NCBI GenBank assembly: GCA_947448685.1
Contig: CANFOP010000005.1
Coordinates: 1-51,099 of the forward strand
Direction of reading: 5' to 3'
DNA: 51,099 nt
Origin: Chitinophagaceae bacterium
GTDB lineage: Bacteria > Bacteroidota > Bacteroidia > Chitinophagales > Chitinophagaceae
Shown here: positions 7,782 through 31,573 of the stretch, piece after piece
Layout of the letters: each line of letters starts with the position of its first letter
How positions within the stretch are numbered: the first letter of the stretch is position 1
Made by a program: the position numbers and the translations under genes
The notes under the pieces: generated by a model
Told to the model about the DNA's origin: nothing
Databases searched by the model: none
Seen by the model: the letters and a program-made list of their open reading frames with translations, nothing else

Positions 7782-9044
7782 TTGTTATTTTCAGATTTAC
7801 AAATTATTGAGCCCATTTTGCATGCGCTCAAAGAAGAAGGATACTCTTCGCCAACACCCATTCAGGAAAAAGCCATTCCTTTTATTTTATCAGGCAGGGA
7901 TTTGTTGGGTTGCGCTCAAACAGGTACCGGCAAAACAGCCGCATTTGCTATTCCTATTTTACAACGACTAAGCAAACCTCACGCAGTTAAAACAGGAGAC
8001 AAGCCCATTCGTGCTTTAATTCTTACTCCAACCCGAGAATTAGCTATTCAAATTGAAGAGAGTTTTCGCGCTTACGGCAAAATGCTAAGATTAAAACACC
8101 TGGTTGTTTTTGGTGGAGTAAGCCAAGTTCCTCAAACCAGCGCTCTTGAAAGAGGAACCGATATATTGGTAGCAACACCAGGAAGACTGCTAGACCTGAT
8201 TAACCAAGGTTATATCAACTTAAAGGATATTGAAATTTTTGTGCTGGATGAAGCAGACCGAATGCTGGACATGGGGTTTGTTCATGATGTAAAAAGAGTT
8301 ATTACCAAGCTTCCTCAAAAAAGACAAACCCTTTTCTTCTCGGCTACTATGCCCGATGAAATAAAATCATTGGCAAACGCAATTTTAATCAATCCTGAAA
8401 AAGTAGAAGTAACGCCCATTTCCTCTACCGCCGACACGATTAATCAATCTTTGTTTTTTGTTGAAAAGGCAAATAAAAAATTATTACTGGCTAATATTCT
8501 CAAAGATCAGGAAATTAAGTCTGCACTTGTTTTCACGAGAACCAAACACGGTGCGGATAAAGTCGTAAAAGACCTGATTAAAATTGGTATAAAGGCAGAA
8601 GCAATTCATGGCAATAAATCTCAAAATGCCAGGCAAAGGGCATTGAATAATTTTAAAGATAGGTCCACCAGAGTTTTAGTGGCTACAGATATTGCCGCAA
8701 GGGGAATTGATGTGGATGAATTAACTCATGTTATTAATTATGAACTTCCGAATGTCCCCGAAACATATGTTCACAGAATTGGTCGAACGGGAAGGGCTGG
8801 ATTAAGTGGCGTGGCTTTATCTTTTTGTGAACAGGAAGAGTTGCCCTATCTGAAAGATATTCAAAAGCTGATCGGAAAAAAAATCAACATCAATAGCACG
8901 CACGATTTCCACATTGATCTGAATATTGAGATAAATAAAAACCACACCCCCCAACATAATCAACAGAAAGGAAACTCATCAAACAACAAAAAAAGGAATT
9001 TTAATCAACCCAAAAGAAATTTTTCAAGACAAAAACCGCAATAA
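7782..9044 (+). CDS. DEAD/DEAH-box ATP-dependent RNA helicase (RhlE/CshA-like)
   Basis: A 420-residue DEAD-box helicase for RNA remodelling. Q motif TPIQEKAIP, motif I AQTGTGKTAAF, Ia PTRELAIQ, Ib TPGRLLDL, motif II DEAD, motif III SAT, motif IV LVFTRTK, V TDIAARGIDV and VI YVHRIGRTGRAG are all present. The C-terminal 40 residues are basic, Asn/Gln-rich and probably unstructured, typical of RhlE-like proteins. Translation appears to begin at a TTG codon; the frame is open upstream only to a TGA at 7734 and contains no ATG before the conserved FSDLQIIEP. The long leader suggests post-transcriptional control, perhaps by cold, which is inference. Confidence 0.93.
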   Translation: MLFSDLQIIEPILHALKEEGYSSPTPIQEKAIPFILSGRDLLGCAQTGTGKTAAFAIPILQRLSKPHAVKTGDKPIRALILTPTRELAIQIEESFRAYGKMLRLKHLVVFGGVSQVPQTSALERGTDILVATPGRLLDLINQGYINLKDIEIFVLDEADRMLDMGFVHDVKRVITKLPQKRQTLFFSATMPDEIKSLANAILINPEKVEVTPISSTADTINQSLFFVEKANKKLLLANILKDQEIKSALVFTRTKHGADKVVKDLIKIGIKAEAIHGNKSQNARQRALNNFKDRSTRVLVATDIAARGIDVDELTHVINYELPNVPETYVHRIGRTGRAGLSGVALSFCEQEELPYLKDIQKLIGKKININSTHDFHIDLNIEINKNHTPQHNQQKGNSSNNKKRNFNQPKRNFSRQKPQ

Positions 9045-9068
9045 TTCAATTATCATTCATTCCGTTTT

Positions 9069-9076
9069 TATATTTG
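9069..9076 (+). promoter_or_regulatory. Promoter -7 element for asnS
   Basis: TATATTTG, an exact TAnnTTTG match, 19 bases before the asnS ATG, giving a short leader. No TTTG is seen at the -33 position. Confidence 0.6.
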
Positions 9077-9095
9077 TAGAATAAATATTAATAGC

Positions 9096-10538
9096 ATGTT
9101 CCATAAGCGCATACGAATCAAAGATTTATTACAATCAGATAATGTTAATTACCAGGCAACTGTAATGGGTTGGGTAAGAACTTTTAGAAACAATCAATTC
9201 ATTGCATTAAATGATGGCAGCACCAACAATAATCTACAAATTGTAATTGCATTGGGGTCGCTTGATGAACAAACACTCAAAAGAATAACAACGGGTGCCT
9301 GCATAAAGGCCAGTGGTGAAATTATTCCTTCATTGGGAAAGGGACAAAAAATTGAACTGAATGCAATCAATGTTGAAATTTTGGGTGATAGCGACGCAGA
9401 GAAATTTCCACTTCAACCCAAAAAGCATAGTTTAGAATTCTTAAGAGAAATTGCACACCTCCGTTTTCGTACAAATACATTTGGTGCGGTCTTCAGAATA
9501 AGACACTCTCTGGCTTTTGCCATACATGAGTTCTTTAATAAAAAAGGATTTATTTATTTACATACCCCCATCATTACTGCAAGCGACGCAGAAGGTGCTG
9601 GTGAAATGTTTAAAGTTACCACGCTTCCATTAGATGGAACTGCTCCTAGAAACGACGATGGCTCTATCAATTTCAAAGAAGATTTTTTCGGCAGAAGTAC
9701 AAATCTGACCGTGAGCGGTCAACTGGAAGGAGAATTGGCTGCGATGGCTTTCAGTGATATTTATACTTTTGGTCCTACTTTTCGTGCAGAAAACAGTAAT
9801 ACCACCAGACACCTCGCTGAATTTTGGATGATAGAACCCGAAATGGCATTCTATGATTTGGAAGACAATATGAACCTTGCTGAAGAATTCATTAAGTATA
9901 TCATCCGTTATGCCATGGATAATAATAAAGAGGATTTAGATTTTTTAACGCAGCGACTCGAAGAAGAGGAAAAACAAAAACCTCAAAACGAAAGAAGCGA
10001 AATGAGTTTACTTCAAAAATTGGAATTCGTAGTAAACAATGATTTTGAAAAAATTACTTATACTGACGCGATTGAAATTTTAAAAGAATCAAGCCACAAC
10101 AAGAAAAAGAAATTTCAATACATCATTGATAAATGGGGTATAGATCTTCAAAGCGAACATGAGAGATATTTAGTGGAGAAACATTTTAAAAAACCTGTTA
10201 TTCTCACCAATTATCCAAAAGAAATCAAAGCGTTTTACATGCGTCAAAATGATGACGGCAAAACTGTTGCAGCGATGGATATCCTTGCTCCCGGTATCGG
10301 AGAAATTGTGGGTGGGTCTCAAAGAGAGGAACGTTTGGATAAACTAACACAAAGAATGGAAGAAATGCATATACCAACGGAAGAACTGGATTGGTATTTG
10401 GATACAAGGAGATTTGGGGCGTGTCCTCACGCTGGATTTGGACTTGGTTTCGAAAGAATCGTTCAGTTTGTAACAGGTATGGGAAATATCAGAGATGTAA
10501 TACCTTTTCCAAGATACCCAAAAAGTGCTTCATTCTAA
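9096..10538 (+). CDS. asnS: Asparaginyl-tRNA synthetase
   Basis: Class II synthetase charging tRNA-Asn, 480 residues. The N-terminal OB-fold ([18 protein letters not shown]) binds the anticodon; class II motif 2 appears in [19 protein letters not shown] and motif 3 in [15 protein letters not shown] with PFPRYPKSA at the C-terminus. An insert around residues 285-345 (Glu/Lys rich) between motifs 2 and 3 is normal for this family in Bacteroidota. The gene has its own promoter-like element and stands 49 bases ahead of corA. Its cognate tRNA-Asn lies at the other end of the window. Confidence 0.97.
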
Positions 10539-23290: not shown

Positions 23291-23475
23291 AGGGATGTTT
23301 TTAAATGTTAACGATTAATATTTCAGTAAAAGGAGGCGCCTTCTTTTTACGGAACAAAGATGAAGTAGTTAGCCCTTCAATTAATAGCATTAAGCATTTA
23401 TTGTTGAAAAAAAACAGTTACAAACGTTTAAATCACATTAGCAATCAACAACTGTATTTTATTTTAGTGAAAAAA

Positions 23476-23841
23476 ATGGAACCATTAAATTACCCTTCCA
23501 AACTTTGCCATTATTGTAAAAAAGAAATCAGAGGCCGTTCTGATAAAAAATTTTGTAATGATTATTGCAGAAATATCTACAATAATCAACTGCATTCGAT
23601 TGAAAATAATTTAATCAGAAATATAAATTATGCTCTGGGAAAAAACAGAAGAATATTAGATGAATTGGCATCAGCGGAAAGAATAGTGAAAATAAAAAAA
23701 GAAGAACTTCTTTATTTAGGCTTTCATTTTAAGTATCATACGCATAATTATAAAAGCAAAACGGGAACAGTCCTTTATGGGTGCTATGATTTTTTTTATT
23801 TTACAATTAATGACGAATGGTGTGTATTTATAAGAAATTAA
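23476..23841 (+). CDS. Small zinc-ribbon protein of unknown function
   Basis: A 121-residue protein with an N-terminal zinc-binding knuckle: CHYCKKEIRGRSDKKFC then NDYC gives C-x2-C-x12-C-x3-C at about residues 10-29. The remainder (NLIRNINYALGKNRRILDEL, then a beta-rich end KYHTHNYKSKTG, YGCYDFFYFTINDEW) has no recognised domain; proteins of this pattern recur in Bacteroidota. The ATG at 23476 is chosen since sequence before it back to 23305 has no family resemblance. The stop is one base from the stop of the convergent ABC-type gene. Confidence 0.6.
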   Translation: MEPLNYPSKLCHYCKKEIRGRSDKKFCNDYCRNIYNNQLHSIENNLIRNINYALGKNRRILDELASAERIVKIKKEELLYLGFHFKYHTHNYKSKTGTVLYGCYDFFYFTINDEWCVFIRN

Positions 23842-23842
23842 A

Positions 23843-24778
23843 TCAGGCCGAAAGCTTTAACTTTCCTTGAATGTAGTTTATTTCTTTGTTGTTTAATTCG
23901 TTTTCTGATGGCGAATTTGATTCTTCCATTTCAGAGGTTATTCTTTTTACAATATCCTTTAAAGAAGATATTTTTTGAATAGCATATGGAATGGTATCCA
24001 AGCCAGATACAAATTTTAAAACATAGTTGTAAATCCCAATTAGGCTGCCCACAAGAAGTGTTGCACCAAACATACTCGACGAAATAATCAATGAACTCGC
24101 AATGATTATTAATACAAGCATTTCCATAATACCAAAATTAATAGCCTCTTTGTCAGAAATCTTTATTTGCCACTTTTTCAAATTTGAGTAATGTTGTTTA
24201 ACGGAAACTTCATTGCCAAAGGCAATCACACTAACCTGTTTTTCCAACTCATCGTTTTTCAAACGATTTAATTTACTGACTTTTTTTCCGTAAAAAAAAC
24301 TGATAATTACTACCGGAATCAACATTAATAAACAAAGCAACACGACATTTCTATTATAGAAATAAAGCAGCACCAATGAACCGAATATATTAAAGACAGC
24401 TTCGATTATATAGGTCAGATCAGACTCCAGAAAATCTACGACCTCTCGAGAAAGTGTACTGTGTGCACTGAGTTTGGAAATGTCTTTATTAGCACCCCTT
24501 TTGGTTAAAAATCGTGTAACCAAGGATGTATAAATTGCTGTGTAAGTTCTGGTATCGTACATGTGCCTCAGCGTACCAATTATCAGCCATGCAAAATGAA
24601 TGGCTGATAATAAAATTAAACCACGGTAACTTCCTTTTATAATATCATTCACGGCCACACCCAAAAAATAAGGCCTAAGAAGAGCCCCCAACATTTCTAC
24701 AGAATAAAGGGAATAGGTAATAGATAGTTTTAAATAATATTTTTTCACCAGCCGCTCAATAACATCAATTGCAGACAT
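23843..24778 (-). CDS. ABC-exporter-type six-transmembrane protein lacking an ATPase domain
   Basis: A 311-residue membrane protein with the fold of an ABC exporter transmembrane domain: about six hydrophobic segments, including LILLSAIHFAWLIIGTL, IFGSLVLLYFYN, LLCLLMLIPVVIISFFYG and MEMLVLIIIASSLIISSS, separated by long cytoplasmic helices. It stops after the sixth segment region with a short acidic tail; no Walker A, LSGGQ or Walker B is present and none is encoded next to it. This matches the ABC six-TM (ABC_membrane_3-like) stand-alone group. The ATG at 24778 is preferred to an upstream TTG at 24811. It is the last gene of the fabG-to-ABC array, suggesting movement of the cluster product. 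Confidence 0.75.
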   Translation of the reverse strand: MSAIDVIERLVKKYYLKLSITYSLYSVEMLGALLRPYFLGVAVNDIIKGSYRGLILLSAIHFAWLIIGTLRHMYDTRTYTAIYTSLVTRFLTKRGANKDISKLSAHSTLSREVVDFLESDLTYIIEAVFNIFGSLVLLYFYNRNVVLLCLLMLIPVVIISFFYGKKVSKLNRLKNDELEKQVSVIAFGNEVSVKQHYSNLKKWQIKISDKEAINFGIMEMLVLIIIASSLIISSSMFGATLLVGSLIGIYNYVLKFVSGLDTIPYAIQKISSLKDIVKRITSEMEESNSPSENELNNKEINYIQGKLKLSA

Positions 24779-24870
24779 ACTTTTTTCTTTTATTAATAAA
24801 TAATATTCCAATTGACATAATTGTCAATTCAAGCAGAAATAAATGGGTTAGAGGTAAACAATCTTATTGA

Positions 24871-26319
24871 TTAAACATTTCTGTTTTGTTCTCTCAAACT
24901 AACAGAATTGTTTTTTATACCTTTTATAAGTCCTTTGCAAGAAGGGGTGCCGCAAGAACAAGTGAAAGACTCCATGGTATCATCTAAAAACTGAGCATAA
25001 TCAAGCGTAAACTCTTCATTTTTTCTGATTGTTCGAGTTGCTATTACATCGAGTCCTTTATAAACGGTGTTGGCTTCACAACTATGGTTTTGGGGAGCCC
25101 ATTCAGCAGGATTGTTATCCCACAGCAAAAATACTTCATTGCTGACGGGATAAGCATATTTTCTAAAATTTTCAAGTTCTTTAACAGACCAGTTATCTCT
25201 TATATATGAGTGCGTGGCAATTCGCTGAGAACGCCCTTCTCCTTTGAAAATAATTTCCCCTTTTTCTATATCTCTTACGGCGTAAATTCCATAGCCACTG
25301 ATGGAATTACCCCTCATGGTATATTTTTTTTGTTTTTGTTGGTGTCTCTCAATTCCCTCCTCAATTATTTTTTGTAAGAAATCAGATTTACTGATACCAC
25401 TGTATTTTAATATATAGTCAGCAGAACCCTCATAACCATTATCATAGAATACAGAACAAGTAAAATTTATTTCAAGAAAAAACAATTCTCCCTTACCATT
25501 CATGCGGAAATCCAGTCGCGCATAACCTACGCCGCCAAATCCATTAAAGACGGCCGCGGAAGCATCTTTTAATTGTTGAGCAAGCGCGTTGTCTTCAACG
25601 GGAATATTTGCATTTGGATGCAGCTCCGAAGTTTTTAATGAATAGGTTTTAAAAGCATTTCCCATACGAAAGCGATATTCAACAGGAGTATAAACGGTTA
25701 TTTTTTTATTTTGTTTGTTACCTGCAACAAGCATGACGGTGAACTCTCTTCCATCAATATATTCTTCCACCAAAATGGGACCATATTCATCAAAAATGGC
25801 TGCTACTTTTTCTAATAGCGCCTCCTTGTCATTAACCAGCGAAGATGAATCAATGCCCAAACTATCTCCTGCTTTGCAAGGTTTTACAAATAAAGGATAA
25901 CGCAAATGCCTACACGAAAATTCTATTTCTTCAATGGTTTCTATTATTGCATATGCCGGGGTATTAACACCGACTGTATATGCAACATACTTCATCAAAT
26001 CTTTTGGCGGGTCATATAATACAGACGTGGGTCCGGTAAAGGGAAGATTTAGATTTTCTAGAAAATAAATTACATCTATGGAGGGAATTTCCCAATCCAG
26101 ATAACCTTCACAAAGATTTACAAAAATATCATAGTTTTTTTTACGTAAGTTCTTTAACTGTTTGTATGTGGTAAGTTTATTTAAAAAGACATGGTCAACC
26201 GTGCTATTGGCAATCAATCCTGAAAGATTTCTTGGCGGGTCGTAATGCTGATAGTCGACAGCCGATGTTGAGTAGTCGGGTTGTAAAACACATATTTTCA
26301 ATTCTTTTTGATTTGACAT
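24871..26319 (-). CDS. Fusion of D-Ala-D-Ala-ligase-like ATP-grasp and SET-domain methyltransferase
   Basis: A 482-residue two-domain enzyme. Residues 1-325 form a Ddl-like ATP-grasp ligase: FVKPCKAGDSLGID (Lys146), VEEYIDGREF, YARLDFR (Asp270) and LEINFTCS (Glu283, Asn285) supply nucleotide and Mg contacts. Residues 335-470 form a SET domain: GYGIYAVRDIEKGE binds S-adenosylmethionine, NHSCEANT (411-418) is the pseudoknot motif, EEFTLDY has the catalytic Tyr441, and CSCGTPSC (Cys454, 456, 461) is a post-SET CxCx4C zinc site. The union implies that the ligated product, a peptide tail or a lysine-like amine, is methylated. Twelve bases behind the second ATP-grasp gene. Substrate unknown. Confidence 0.88.
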   Translation of the reverse strand: MSNQKELKICVLQPDYSTSAVDYQHYDPPRNLSGLIANSTVDHVFLNKLTTYKQLKNLRKKNYDIFVNLCEGYLDWEIPSIDVIYFLENLNLPFTGPTSVLYDPPKDLMKYVAYTVGVNTPAYAIIETIEEIEFSCRHLRYPLFVKPCKAGDSLGIDSSSLVNDKEALLEKVAAIFDEYGPILVEEYIDGREFTVMLVAGNKQNKKITVYTPVEYRFRMGNAFKTYSLKTSELHPNANIPVEDNALAQQLKDASAAVFNGFGGVGYARLDFRMNGKGELFFLEINFTCSVFYDNGYEGSADYILKYSGISKSDFLQKIIEEGIERHQQKQKKYTMRGNSISGYGIYAVRDIEKGEIIFKGEGRSQRIATHSYIRDNWSVKELENFRKYAYPVSNEVFLLWDNNPAEWAPQNHSCEANTVYKGLDVIATRTIRKNEEFTLDYAQFLDDTMESFTCSCGTPSCKGLIKGIKNNSVSLREQNRNV

Positions 26320-26331
26320 TTTTTACGGGCT

Positions 26332-27471
26332 TTAAACAATTGATTTTATTTGAGCTCTTATAATTGCATCAACAATAATTTCCTCAATCAGTGTATAAAA
26401 ATGTTTGTTTGAAAACTTTAAAATTGCGCCAATGGATGTGTAATTTTCATCTTCGCTGAGGCCGCACTGAGCATTTATCTCTAACACAAACAGTTTATTT
26501 GTGTTTAGGTCTTTTCTGATATCTACCCTTGCATATCCCATTCCTTTATTTGAAACAAAGGCGCTCCAAGATATATTTTTTAAGGGCTCTATTAATTCTG
26601 TTTGGGGTAAGCCGTATTCATAAAAATTTTCTTGATGGGGCATAGAAGTTTCAGTTTCATAAATTTCCCATAGTCTGTCAAAACTCAAAAACCTTTCTTT
26701 TTCCGGCAATGACGGGTGAAAAACCCTTTCAACCGGTGTGTAAATGATTGCATCTTCGGGCCTGTCATATGAACCCGAAATGAGAACCGTGTATTCCGGA
26801 CCTGATATAAATTTTTCAGCAATTAAACCGTCGGTTGTGAGATTCCAGCCCTTATAGCCATTAAACAACTCTTCCAACAAGCCAAGCATTTCATCTTTTG
26901 TTTCCACTACATTTTTAATACCAACTCCCATGCTACCACCCGATACAGAGGGCTTGATAATAATGGGTGGCTCAATGATCTCAAGTATATGTTGAGCATT
27001 AATTTCCGGGGAGTTTATTGCTATCCATTTTGCATTTGATACCCCGTACTCATCAAACGCTTTCTTCATGGGTATTTTTGATGTGGTGATTGAATAAAAA
27101 TATTCATCAGCACCCGTATAGATAAGATTCAATTCTTCGAGTTTTCTTATAACCGAAATGCCGGGTGTTCCATTTTTTTCGTCACCATCACACAGATTTA
27201 AAACAATAGGAAAAAGATGACTGTCTTTTTTTTCGAGGGAAATAGTATGGAGTATTTCTTGAAAAGTATTGATTGCAACCGGCTGCCAAACCCATTGAAT
27301 GCCCAATTCTTTAAATACCCTTGTATATTCTTCAATGCTTTGTGAGAAGTCGTAATAGTAATTAATATTATCATCTGCTGATTCAATGTAAGGGGCAAGA
27401 ACCCATACTTTAATTGTATGCTTATCTGGTATTGTTGGATTTATATCTAAAAAATTTTGTAGCAGAGACAT
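26332..27471 (-). CDS. D-Ala-D-Ala-ligase-like ATP-grasp amide ligase
   Basis: A 379-residue ATP-grasp protein. LNLCDGDEKNGTPGIS, IIKPSVSGGSMGVGI (Lys173), AEKFISGPEYTVLISG, GYARVDIRK (Asp317) and VLEINAQCGLS (Glu331, Asn333) match the Ddl fold, with catalytic metal ligands in place. It shares YTPVE (244-248) with the neighbouring fusion protein (210-214), so the two ligases belong to one subfamily that differs from true Ddl; the usual Ddl ending with N-x-PG is here NAQCG. It likely forms an amide between a carboxylate and an amine, one step in a two-ligase pathway. Three bases behind the SET gene. Confidence 0.87.
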   Translation of the reverse strand: MSLLQNFLDINPTIPDKHTIKVWVLAPYIESADDNINYYYDFSQSIEEYTRVFKELGIQWVWQPVAINTFQEILHTISLEKKDSHLFPIVLNLCDGDEKNGTPGISVIRKLEELNLIYTGADEYFYSITTSKIPMKKAFDEYGVSNAKWIAINSPEINAQHILEIIEPPIIIKPSVSGGSMGVGIKNVVETKDEMLGLLEELFNGYKGWNLTTDGLIAEKFISGPEYTVLISGSYDRPEDAIIYTPVERVFHPSLPEKERFLSFDRLWEIYETETSMPHQENFYEYGLPQTELIEPLKNISWSAFVSNKGMGYARVDIRKDLNTNKLFVLEINAQCGLSEDENYTSIGAILKFSNKHFYTLIEEIIVDAIIRAQIKSIV

Positions 27472-27474
27472 GTA

Positions 27475-27975
27475 TTAAGATGGTTGTTTCGACAGGGTAA
27501 TTTTTACAAAAGAGTTTAATTGATAATTCTGTAATGCTGCATTTGACAGAAACATTGCACCCTTGATGTTTTTTAAACAATTGACAGTTCTGCAGTTGCA
27601 TTCAAATGGTTGTGACATGTTTAGTTCTGTTGAAGGATAAAAAAAACACAACTCATCATTTGTGTTTATATTTTTTAATGCTATTAAACGCATGCTGTCT
27701 GTGTTAAAAAAAACGTTGGGCTCGCAACTGTGATTGGTGTATTGTAAGAATTCGGGAAAAAGAGAAATGTGCTGGCTGCCGGAAATTTGTATGGTTAAGT
27801 AATTGGGTTCTGCAAATGTTTCCTTTGCAGAAAAACAACAAATTTCATCCCCCGCATTAAATGAAAGTAAAGCAAACAAGCCATATTGTTGCAGCTTTTC
27901 ATTAAACAACACTTTAGCAAACGAGTGTTTACTTATTTCAATGAAAGAAGCGCTTATTTGGGAATCATGAGACAT
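27475..27975 (-). CDS. Stand-alone SET-domain protein (putative lysine/amine N-methyltransferase)
   Basis: A 166-residue compact SET protein: YGLFALLSFNAGDEI at the S-adenosylmethionine end, TNHSCEPNVFF (NHSC 81-84), NDELCFFYPS with Tyr113 as the catalytic tyrosine, and CNCRTVNC (Cys126, 128, 133), the same CxCx4C post-SET zinc site as in the fusion protein. SET proteins methylate lysine side chains; here the context suggests a small peptide or protein made by the adjacent ligases. The ATG at 27975 is preferred over an upstream TTG at 28020. No signal peptide. Confidence 0.83.
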   Translation of the reverse strand: MSHDSQISASFIEISKHSFAKVLFNEKLQQYGLFALLSFNAGDEICCFSAKETFAEPNYLTIQISGSQHISLFPEFLQYTNHSCEPNVFFNTDSMRLIALKNINTNDELCFFYPSTELNMSQPFECNCRTVNCLKNIKGAMFLSNAALQNYQLNSFVKITLSKQPS

Positions 27976-28034
27976 GAAAGTGGTTTGGGATATCTTTTTA
28001 AAGATACAACTAACCAACAAAAAAACACGAGAGG

Positions 28035-28538
28035 CTATGAATTTTTACAAAGAGATAAAACAATATCCTTATGAGAGGGAAAGCTTTTATATAATCTTTC
28101 AGCATCAGCCATTTCGAAATCATTAAAGTCAAAACCCGGAGCAACAGTACATCCTACAAAAGAGAACTGGCTATCCTTGGCAGGACAGCTTGCAAACCAA
28201 CAGTTTGCCGGAACAACATACTGAAACACCTCCCCATTTTTAATGTCTGAACCAAGGCGCACAATTTCTAAATTTCCGGATGGAAAAATAATATAAATCA
28301 ATAAGCATCCACCTGAATAGAAGTGCCAGCATTCGTCACTTTTAATTCTATGAAAGGCAGAAAACGAACCTTGTTCCAGCAAGAAATATATAGCAGTGGC
28401 AAAGCTTCGGGGTCCATTGAACCTGTCGGGTAACGAATCTCCTGGAATATATTCAGCACTTTTATAAGTTTCACAAAACCAACCACCTTCAGGATGGGGC
28501 AATAAACCGTAATGTTGAATAAGTTCTGCTGGGGTCAT
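28035..28538 (-). CDS. DUF985 family cupin
   Basis: A 167-residue cupin_5/DUF985 protein: LIQHYGLLPHPEGGWFCETYKS at the N-terminus (quoted in part as LLPHPEGGWF), AIYFLLEQGSFSAFHRIKSDE and WHFYSGG in the barrel, and GCTVAPGFDFNDFEMA at the end. The histidines in FHRIKSDECWHFY are plausible metal or substrate ligands. Function of the family is unproven, with sugar or small-molecule binding likely. It is seven bases after the carbonic anhydrase stop region and 59 bases ahead of the SET ATG. Confidence 0.88.
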   Translation of the reverse strand: MTPAELIQHYGLLPHPEGGWFCETYKSAEYIPGDSLPDRFNGPRSFATAIYFLLEQGSFSAFHRIKSDECWHFYSGGCLLIYIIFPSGNLEIVRLGSDIKNGEVFQYVVPANCWFASCPAKDSQFSFVGCTVAPGFDFNDFEMADAERLYKSFPSHKDIVLSLCKNS

Positions 28539-30022: not shown

Positions 30023-30053
30023 CAAAAGTAGTCAGGAGGTGGAGATTAACCAA
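30023..30053 (-). promoter_or_regulatory. Promoter for the fabG-to-ABC seven-gene array (TTG-N20-TACTTTTG)
   Basis: On the minus strand TTG (30051-30053) and TACTTTTG (30023-30030) are 20 bases apart, close to the Bacteroidota consensus. Expected start near 30016, about 50 bases before fabG. It is the only good match I found ahead of the array. Confidence 0.65.
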
Positions 30054-30061
30054 TAAATACA

Positions 30062-31573
30062 TTAAGAAATAATTTCTTCAAGAATTTCCTCAACAATTTT
30101 TCTTTCGTTGCTCAATCTTGGTATTTTATGTTGACCCCCTACTTGTTCTTTTTTTTGTAACCATTTTGAAAAAGTTCCTTTTGGCAAAGAGTGTATTTTG
30201 GGTGGACCGAGTGCGATGTCTTTGAATCTCTTTGCTTCATAGTCGCTGTTTATATTTTTTAAAGCTGTATCCAATTCATTTTTAAATTCATCCAATGAAG
30301 AGGGTTGTTGATCAAATTCAATCAGCCATTCGTGGGCGCCGTTTTGTTGTTTAGAAAAATAAATTGGCGCGGCGGTATAATCTGAAACGATAGAATTGGT
30401 TTTTTGAGCGGCCACAGCAATGGCTTTATCGGCGTTATCCACAATCACTTCTTCACCGAATGCATTCATATAATGCTTTAATCTGCCGGTTACCTTAATC
30501 CTGTATGGATTTAGGTGAGTAAACAAAATAGTATCTCCTACCAAATACCTCCAAAGCCCACCGGTTGTACTAATGATCAATGCATAGTTTTTGTTTACTT
30601 CAACATTATTCAAACCAACCGTTTTAGGGAATCGTTTACCGTATTCTTCAACGGGCATAAACTCATAAAATACTCCATGCTCGGTGAAAAGCGTCATTCC
30701 ATCGTCTTCGGGGCTTTCTTGTCCGGCAAAAAATCCTTCACTGGCATTGTATATTTCCAGGTAGTTAATAGGCTTGCCAATAATTTTTTCAAAATGCTCA
30801 CGGTAAGGAATAAACGAAACGCCACCATTAATATATAGTTCTAAATTGGGCCACACTTCATGAATGGTTGACTTGCCGGTGATTTCGAGAATTCTTTTTA
30901 AAAGAATCAGCGTCCATGTGGGTACTCCAGCAATGGAAGTTACATTTTCGTTTGCTGTGGACTGCGCAAGCGTTTCAATTTTTTCTTCCCAATCATCCAT
31001 CAATGCCACACTTAGTTCGGGGGTTCGAAGCCATTGTCCCCAAAAGGGAGTGTTTTGCATTAATACGGCACTCAGGTCACCATATTGAATTTCGTCATTG
31101 ATGACATTGATTTGATGAGAGCCGCCTATTACCAAACCTTTGCCAGTGAGCAAGTCGCTTGATGGGAAGTTCTTATAATAATTGGAAAGCACGTCTTTGC
31201 TTGCTTTAAAATGATTTTCTTTCAAGCTGTCCTCGCTGATAGGGATAAATTTACTTTTGTTATTAGTTGTACCGCTACTTTTGGCAAACCATTTAACTGG
31301 TGTATTCCAAAGAATATTATCTTCTCCTTCCAGCATTTTTTCAATATACGGAAACAACTGTTCATACTCATGAACGGGAACCCTGCGTTTAAATTCTTTA
31401 ATTGAAAAAAGATTTGAAAATTGGTATTGTTTTCCAAATGCCGTGTATTGAGCAGAGGAGACCAAATTTTGCAATACATCTCTTTGTGCCTCCATTGGAT
31501 GATCGGTCCAGTTTTTAATGCGCCACAGACGCATTCTCGCCAACTTTGATATGGTGGAGGAAAGCAACTTCAT
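30062..31573 (-). CDS. GH3-family acyl-acid amido synthetase
   Basis: A 503-residue member of the GH3 (auxin-responsive promoter) family, whose plant members adenylate carboxylic acids and join them to amino acids. Motif 1 is SSGTTNNKSKFIP (ATP phosphate binding), motif 2 IYNASEGFFAGQE, motif 3 around YLVGDTILF, and the C-terminal domain ends KWLQKKEQVGGQHKIPRLS. Bacterial GH3 proteins are widespread in Bacteroidota and uncharacterised mostly; the bacterial substrate is unknown. It ends 98 bases before the fabG array and could belong functionally with those amide ligases, but it has a separate position and may simply be core. Confidence 0.92.
   Translation of the reverse strand: MKLLSSTISKLARMRLWRIKNWTDHPMEAQRDVLQNLVSSAQYTAFGKQYQFSNLFSIKEFKRRVPVHEYEQLFPYIEKMLEGEDNILWNTPVKWFAKSSGTTNNKSKFIPISEDSLKENHFKASKDVLSNYYKNFPSSDLLTGKGLVIGGSHQINVINDEIQYGDLSAVLMQNTPFWGQWLRTPELSVALMDDWEEKIETLAQSTANENVTSIAGVPTWTLILLKRILEITGKSTIHEVWPNLELYINGGVSFIPYREHFEKIIGKPINYLEIYNASEGFFAGQESPEDDGMTLFTEHGVFYEFMPVEEYGKRFPKTVGLNNVEVNKNYALIISTTGGLWRYLVGDTILFTHLNPYRIKVTGRLKHYMNAFGEEVIVDNADKAIAVAAQKTNSIVSDYTAAPIYFSKQQNGAHEWLIEFDQQPSSLDEFKNELDTALKNINSDYEAKRFKDIALGPPKIHSLPKGTFSKWLQKKEQVGGQHKIPRLSNERKIVEEILEEIIS

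Follow-up and report, generated by a model that had tools for sequence, protein, structure and literature searches.

Before BurB was described, the methyltransferases known from natural-product pathways all belonged to classes I and III (as stated in the part of PMC7496086 drawn on here). BurB is a free-methionine S-methyltransferase (PMC12542666, also cited from part of the source), and the methionine S-methyltransferases BurB and MSMT, known from the DMSP and malleicyprol pathways, have a SET fold without the GxG motif of the histone-type enzymes. The second described protein that invites comparison is human TTLL12, in which SET-like and TTL-like (ligase) domains are found in a single protein (PMC3520985, in part). 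Open-access literature combining the terms “ATP-grasp” and “SET domain” deals with TTLL12 and with drug side effects; among the matches listed in our search of that literature, neither the pairing of these domains in bacteria nor the gene system reported below is described. SET enzymes are not mentioned in the part of PMC4431377 drawn on here.

A three-gene core

The window, by which we mean the whole stretch of 51,099 nucleotides analyzed from a Chitinophagaceae bacterium (contig CANFOP010000005.1), has five minus-strand open reading frames at 23843–28538, which an earlier note had read as one putative system for making a methylated, amide-linked product. All five are present, the claimed domains were recovered by Pfam for every protein, and the intergenic gaps of 3–92 bases are borne out given ATG starts; the stand-alone SET gene probably starts at the ATG at 27975 and not at the TTG at 28020, and the membrane protein gene probably at the ATG at 24778 and not at the TTG at 24811. 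Down the minus strand, the genes encode a DUF985 cupin (28035–28538; Cupin_5/DUF985, E 1.5e-52); the stand-alone SET protein (27475–27975; E 3.9e-9); GRASP, a Ddl-fold ATP-grasp ligase (26332–27471; Dala_Dala_lig_C, E 2.7e-9); GSET, a fusion of an ATP-grasp ligase with a SET domain (24871–26319; Dala_Dala_lig_C, E 3.7e-20, and SET, E 6.2e-9); and TM, an ABC_membrane_3 protein without an ATPase domain (23843–24778; E 2.9e-41).

The conserved system is smaller than these five genes: its core consists of SET, GRASP and the GSET fusion, which together run from 27975 to 24871 on the minus strand. A full-length fusion is found in 20 of 198 sampled genomes of the order Chitinophagales; GRASP is found in the identical 20 genomes and adjoins the fusion in every one of them, and the stand-alone SET is present in 17, beside the core in 15. 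No SET was found in three of the 20 fusion-bearing genomes, and a strong SET match occurs alone in 2 of the 178 genomes of the order without a fusion. The adjacency of fusion and GRASP spans several families, with varied flanking genes, and all three core genes are present in Terrimonas ginsenosidimutans NA20 and Ginsengibacter hankyongi BR5-29; in one genome (G397) the fusion and a GRASP and SET pair co-occur on different contigs. This grouping is far beyond chance. Scattered homologues had been named as an outcome that would make a single system doubtful; the co-occurrence counts tested this and the core genes are not scattered. The co-inherited system of ligases and SET proteins, its catalytic residues kept, is real. 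Its distribution is patchy (10 of 105 genera in the order carry the fusion), which is what accessory metabolism would predict; across the phylum, full-length relatives of the fusion are present in 17 of 395 sampled genomes.

The two outer genes are less constant. Among the 31 Chitinophagales loci (19 + 12) with sufficient upstream DNA, DUF985 accompanies the core in one (L023), the flanking genes of which also match those of the window; DUF985 is common only to the window and L023, and it lies outside the conserved system to which it had been assigned. TM is directly downstream of GSET in only 7 of the 20 genomes and in 6 of 21 named loci, and is an optional partner, not the fixed part that had been supposed.

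A second arrangement is found in the green sulfur bacteria, where full-length fusions (nine genomes) are located beside a SET gene and an ABC exporter. The exporter directly follows the fusion in eight of the nine loci, and the ninth locus ends at the fusion. Both membrane and ATPase domains were confirmed in the green sulfur exporter of one locus (L088), whereas the window gene represents the membrane part only; TM could not be recognised as a fragment of the exporter in green sulfur bacteria (best local E 0.012). The export proposed earlier is made plausible by the full ABC exporter that adjoins the fusion in those bacteria. GRASP is absent from all seven green sulfur genomes searched and, given this absence and that of SET from three Chitinophagales genomes, the gene set is not fixed.

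Ligases and SET domains

Both window ligases have the Ddl fold and are closest to amino-acid ligases. They have in common with Ddl-fold ligases, including those of BacD type, the fold and the nucleotide and catalytic residues: DdlB K97, K144, E180, E187, R255, D257, E270 and N272, which we take to be the nucleotide and metal residues, are all eight aligned in both, and K97 is replaced by Arg in the fusions of green sulfur bacteria and of two other genomes (G396 and G521). They differ from Ddl in being fused to or adjoining a SET domain, in their identity of only ∼20% to the best Ddl structures, and at E15, S150 and Y216 of DdlB, presumably the residues for D-Ala-D-Ala specificity; in the window ligases these are changed to Ser/Ala, Asp/Gly and Thr/Trp, respectively, the E15 column being the least certain, and Ser is retained at position S150 in the fusions of G396 and G521. 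The window genome has a separate Ddl that keeps all three residues, and an identity as D-Ala-D-Ala ligases is not supported for the window ligases. The motif YTPVE, which had been noted as common to the ligases, is literally present in both window proteins, but among their relatives the invariant part shrinks to V-E (GRASP) or P.E (fusion).

In GSET, the ligase occupies residues ∼1–325 and the SET domain residues ∼333–470, and both domains were found in 12 of 12 diverse members. Foldseek searches with an AlphaFold model gave Ddl enzymes as top matches; confidence in the model is moderate (pLDDT 77), so we make no claim on the mutual orientation of the domains. The Cys, His, Asn and Tyr positions of NHSCxxN/Tyr/CxCx4C are invariant in the fused SET (22 fusions), as is GxG (G342, G344). 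With the KMT2/MLL histone lysine methyltransferases the fused SET shares these canonical motifs, and they are its best PDB matches by single sequence (KMT2D, 2e-9 versus 5.4e-6 for BurB); it differs from them in being bacterial and joined to a ligase, and in the profile comparison these enzymes outrank BurB only narrowly (1e-11 for histone-type enzymes versus 3.4e-11, the BurB match spanning positions 405–463 only).

The stand-alone SET, by comparison of sequences and predicted folds, appears clearly BurB-like. BurB is its nearest solved relative by profile (5.4e-18 versus 5.8e-9), its nearest PDB entry by single sequence (1.3e-9 versus 9e-4), and its nearest predicted fold, the last at a moderate level (28% identity, TM 0.64–0.69, rmsd 5 Å or more); BurB also ranks first for the green sulfur homologue (9.6e-13 versus 4e-5). 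An alignment of 19 sequences shows no variation in NHSCxPN, Tyr or the CxCx4C cysteines, and the GxG SAM-binding motif was not found in it; alignment with BurB matches the Tyr, the cysteines of the zinc site and an S-T-E stretch that follows the Tyr. The cysteines of CxCx4C, a site that the earlier note had seen in both window SETs, are invariant in both SET alignments. The note's description of the two SETs as being of matching kind does not hold, the stand-alone one being clearly BurB-like and the fused one not. Lysine, which it had considered as the methylation target, becomes less likely for the stand-alone SET, given that free methionine is the substrate of its closest relative of solved structure. 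The context of the two enzymes is not the same: the bur locus has decarboxylase, transaminase and dehydrogenase neighbours (PMC7496086, in part), whereas the SET gene here adjoins ATP-grasp ligases.

Proposed function and rival explanations

We propose, with a probability of about one half, that the module is one of NRPS-independent biosynthesis, in which amino acids are joined and methylated and the product is probably exported; a small methylated amino-acid compound is the probable product of the three-gene unit, and the amide-plus-methyl product suggested previously is plausible. With co-inheritance, catalytic residues, likeness to BurB and the green sulfur exporter observed, we infer a small-molecule substrate, export and the following order of steps. 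The BurB-like SET would methylate, with SAM as donor, a side-chain nucleophile of a free amino acid or of a small derivative; both ligases, GRASP and the one within GSET, would each convert a carboxylate into an acyl-phosphate for coupling to an amine, so that an amide resembling a di- or tripeptide is formed; the SET domain of GSET would methylate in cis, acting on the substrate or the product of the ligase in its own chain; and the ABC-type protein would probably carry the product across the inner membrane. A small-molecule product would provide a second natural-product setting for SET enzymes, and the three genes are a compact target for which the substrate is searchable with in vitro pools. 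More tentatively, ligase-methyltransferase fusions may build an unrecognised class of small molecules in Chitinophagales and green sulfur bacteria, with amide formation coupled to SET methylation in one polypeptide; if so, SET enzymes, viewed as lysine methyltransferases of proteins, would be ordinary tools of secondary metabolism beyond BurB and MSMT.

Protein tagging is the main rival to a small-molecule pathway, though we consider it unlikely: the ATP-grasp enzymes would attach amino acids to a protein, in the manner of tubulin tyrosine ligase and RimK, and the SETs would methylate the tagged site, in a bacterial counterpart of TTLL12. TTLL12 joins the same two enzyme kinds (PMC3520985, in part), and both it and GSET have a SET-like domain and an ATP-grasp-type ligase in one chain, but TTLL12 is eukaryotic and TTL-type whereas GSET is Ddl-type; histone methylation activity is, moreover, denied for TTLL12 in the part of that source drawn on here. 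The proximity of the fused SET to histone lysine methyltransferases by single sequence speaks for tagging, while the relation of the Ddl-fold ligases to amino-acid ligases, and of the stand-alone SET to a free-amino-acid enzyme, speaks against it; an ABC exporter, too, fits poorly. In G396, a distant genome, the fusion is accompanied by a gene of the MATCAP/DUF1704 family, that of the tubulin tyrosine carboxypeptidases, but within the order this association was rejected, as such a gene is present in only 1 of 198 genomes and the fusion is absent there. Were protein modification the function, the system would offer a bacterial model of the TTLL12-like domain pairing.

Cell-envelope chemistry, in which Ddl/Van-like ligases would make an unusual peptidoglycan or lipid-linked dipeptide to be methylated by the SETs, is improbable: it accords with the Ddl fold and with the association of the genes with membrane proteins, but the genome's own Ddl retains E15, S150 and Y216 whereas both window ligases have other residues there, and presence in 20 of 198 genomes is patchy. 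A pathway like those of RiPPs, with the ligases cross-linking or extending a ribosomal precursor peptide and the SETs methylating it, has a precedent in the graspetides, in which ATP-grasp ligases modify ribosomal precursor peptides, but is more improbable still. Around the core (up to 1 kb away) in 34 loci of Chitinophagales and 6 of green sulfur bacteria, the nine largest clusters inspected per group include no conserved precursor-like open reading frame, a search that could miss precursors if very short or remote; an antisense gene (6 of 34 loci) forms the largest true gene family, and the other large clusters are small open reading frames overlapping MnmG or ABC genes. That the genes have no common function and are neighbours through shared synteny only holds for DUF985, but for the core this very improbable reading is refuted by the co-occurrence counts, the unbroken adjacency of fusion and GRASP across families with varied flanks, and the second arrangement in green sulfur bacteria.

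Mobile and defensive contexts were rejected: 58 phage stretches matched the search pattern with no relative among them, the other phage matches being partial or stand-alone ligases only; none of 56 matching plasmid records covered over 80% of the fusion; and a search for defence systems gave one weak match, to the fusion (E 0.0023). The distances of the three core proteins are correlated, and shared ancestry alone could explain this. A Bacteroidota-type promoter pattern matches once on the minus strand near the genes (position 30053, upstream of the SDR gene), which is uninformative because there are 10 minus-strand and 6 plus-strand matches across the window. In base composition the core is not distinct, with a GC content of 34–36% compared with 34% for the window.

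The locus in the window and its conserved core

The window derives from contig C5 of a draft genome (82% complete, 181 contigs), and ORF calls recovered five minus-strand reading frames across 23843-28538, as the earlier note had described, with Pfam bearing out the domains claimed for each. Besides a DUF985 cupin, these encode a stand-alone SET-domain protein (SET, 27475-27975), an ATP-grasp ligase (GRASP, 26332-27471), a ligase fused to a SET domain (GSET, 24871-26319) and an ABC_membrane_3 protein with no ATPase domain (TM, 23843-24778). The intergenic gaps are 3-92 bases, given ATG 27975 and ATG 24778, the probable starts of the stand-alone SET and of TM, respectively. A small ORF opposite TM (23305-23841) has no Pfam match and is kept beside a single-strand binding protein gene in 13 of 22 loci; a GH3-family protein is encoded at 30062-31573, scoring 411 bits against the lyso-ornithine lipid synthetase OlsH model, under the cut-off of 620.

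The ligase-SET module exists as a conserved unit. When named genomes were scanned with GSET, a search that detects only close relatives, 21 loci (59-83% identity) were recovered in Bacteroidota records, among them Ferruginibacter, Terrimonas, Ginsengibacter and Segetibacter. GRASP is immediately upstream of GSET in all 21, and SET is upstream of GRASP in 18; a contig break truncates the region in one of the three loci with no visible SET (L013), and in the other two (L009 and L022) flanking DNA is present, yet there is no SET upstream of GRASP. Co-occurrence across genomes was checked in 198 sampled genomes of the order Chitinophagales: the full fusion was found in 20, the same 20 have GRASP (E 1e-50 or better), always adjoining the fusion, and 17 of them have SET. 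It sits beside the ligases in 15, counting one genome (G047) where it is downstream of TM; in G113 and G135 it is elsewhere in the genome, away from the ligases, and in G042, G055 and G185 it was not found. The ligase loci of G113 and G135 have a kynureninase-like gene directly upstream of GRASP (L095:10035-11315, by Pfam, and L114:10205-11482, by resemblance). Among the 178 genomes of the order without the fusion, SET gave strong matches in G041 and G128 and weak ones in G008 and G013. The triad persists while flanking genes vary from locus to locus, and the pairwise distances of its three members are correlated (r 0.84-0.88 across 19 loci; permutation test, 0 of 2000), although shared ancestry alone could also produce such values.

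The earlier note had proposed a five-gene system, of which the SET-GRASP-GSET core stands. Membership of DUF985 was not borne out: the gene is present in one of 31 loci having enough upstream DNA (L023), where the other flanking genes match the window too. TM is optional rather than a fixed part, being downstream of GSET in 6 of the 21 named loci (the L009 contig stops within an apparent seventh copy, and that of L005 at GSET) and adjoining GSET in 7 of the 20 fusion-bearing genomes of the order. The system is best redefined as SET-GRASP-GSET plus an optional membrane partner.

Relatives elsewhere in the phylum

A full-length fusion (E 3e-130 or better) was found in 17 of 395 sampled genomes of the phylum. 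Five of these belong to the order and nine to a single genus of family f38; the remaining three are G396, G397 and G521. Pfam detects both fusion domains in 12/12 diverse members. Family f38 is taken to be the green sulfur bacteria, because the FMO bacteriochlorophyll protein was detected in all seven of the nine f38 genomes examined versus 0/3 others. There the genes run SET, GSET, then an ABC exporter combining membrane and ATPase domains (both confirmed on one locus, L088) and lastly a third, short SET. SET and the exporter ORF are each present in 8/9 loci, both misses being contig ends, and the short SET in 5/5 wide loci; in L088 (7348-11612) a BurB-like SET flanks the fusion, with the exporter and then a 118-aa third SET after it. 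GRASP was not found in seven green sulfur genomes, beyond cross-matches to the fusion itself. Only in green sulfur bacteria, with their complete transporter, is the ABC link firm; the window TM lacks an ATPase domain and was not detectably part of this exporter in sequence comparison (best local E 0.012).

In G397 the parts co-occur without linkage, as contig 31 carries the fusion and contig 18 carries GRASP and SET; G396 and G521 have the fusion, with no separate GRASP or SET found. The G396 fusion (7817-9295 within L086:4638-11602, all on one strand) has a gamma-glutamyltranspeptidase on one side and an N-formylglutamate amidohydrolase-like protein and a MATCAP/DUF1704-family (QEGLA) protein on the other, placing ligase, SET and carboxypeptidase family side by side in a manner that recalls the tubulin tyrosination enzymes. 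It is possible that the ligases and SETs tag proteins: TTLL12 unites SET-like and ligase-like domains, according to PMC3520985, and this one fusion adjoins a MATCAP-family gene, but MATCAP is found in only 1 of the 198 genomes of the order, a fusion-free one.

SET domains, ligases and a proposed pathway

The best solved relative of the stand-alone SET is BurB, a SET-domain methyltransferase acting on free methionine, whether by profile (E 5.4e-18 versus 5.8e-9 for the next) or single sequence (1.3e-9 versus 9e-4). BurB structures also take ranks 1-3 for its AlphaFold model (pLDDT 89), with moderate overlap (TM-score 0.64-0.69), and BurB likewise ranks first for the green sulfur homologue. The stand-alone SET shows NHSCxPN, Tyr and CxCx4C in its alignment but no GxG, a motif that the fused SET carries together with NHSCxxN, Tyr and the CxCx4C site. 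For the fused domain, KMT2 histone enzymes are the best solved relatives by single sequence (KMT2D 2e-9, BurB 5.4e-6), and KMT2 and BurB are nearly tied by profile (1e-11 and 3.4e-11). BurB converts free methionine to S-methylmethionine and holds methionine mostly via main-chain contacts (PMC12542666); its discoverers state, in PMC7496086, that natural-product methyltransferases were previously known only from classes I and III.

In the likeliest scheme, with reaction types drawn from the enzyme families, the stand-alone SET would prepare or finish a methylated amino acid, amide bonds would be formed by GRASP and GSET through acyl-phosphate chemistry, the fused SET would methylate in cis, and an ABC-type protein would transport the product; we infer the substrate, the order of the steps and export. 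Action on a ribosomal precursor peptide, as in a RiPP pathway, is unlikely because searches extending 1 kb from the core at 34 Chitinophagales and 6 green sulfur loci found no conserved precursor. No description of the ligase-SET module was found in searches of open-access papers, and as far as those papers show it is undescribed.

Aligned with the E. coli D-Ala-D-Ala ligase DdlB, both window ligases retain K97, K144, E180, E187, R255, D257, E270 and N272, which we take to be the nucleotide and catalytic residues. They differ from DdlB at E15, S150 and Y216, presumably the specificity residues, all three of which are preserved in the Ddl encoded by the same genome; of these alignment columns, that of E15 is the least secure. 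Because the catalytic residues are kept and these three positions changed, the window ligases look like active ATP-grasp enzymes with a substrate other than that of Ddl, and the same specificity residues make a Ddl/Van role unlikely. K97 is replaced by Arg in the distant fusions. On viral contigs, close alignment found no relative; a wider alignment gave three stand-alone IMG/VR ligases of about 318 aa (L117:513-1466, L118:4902-5855 and L119:4998-5957), which have no SET but closely resemble the fusion's ligase half, scoring 169-195 bits against its profile.
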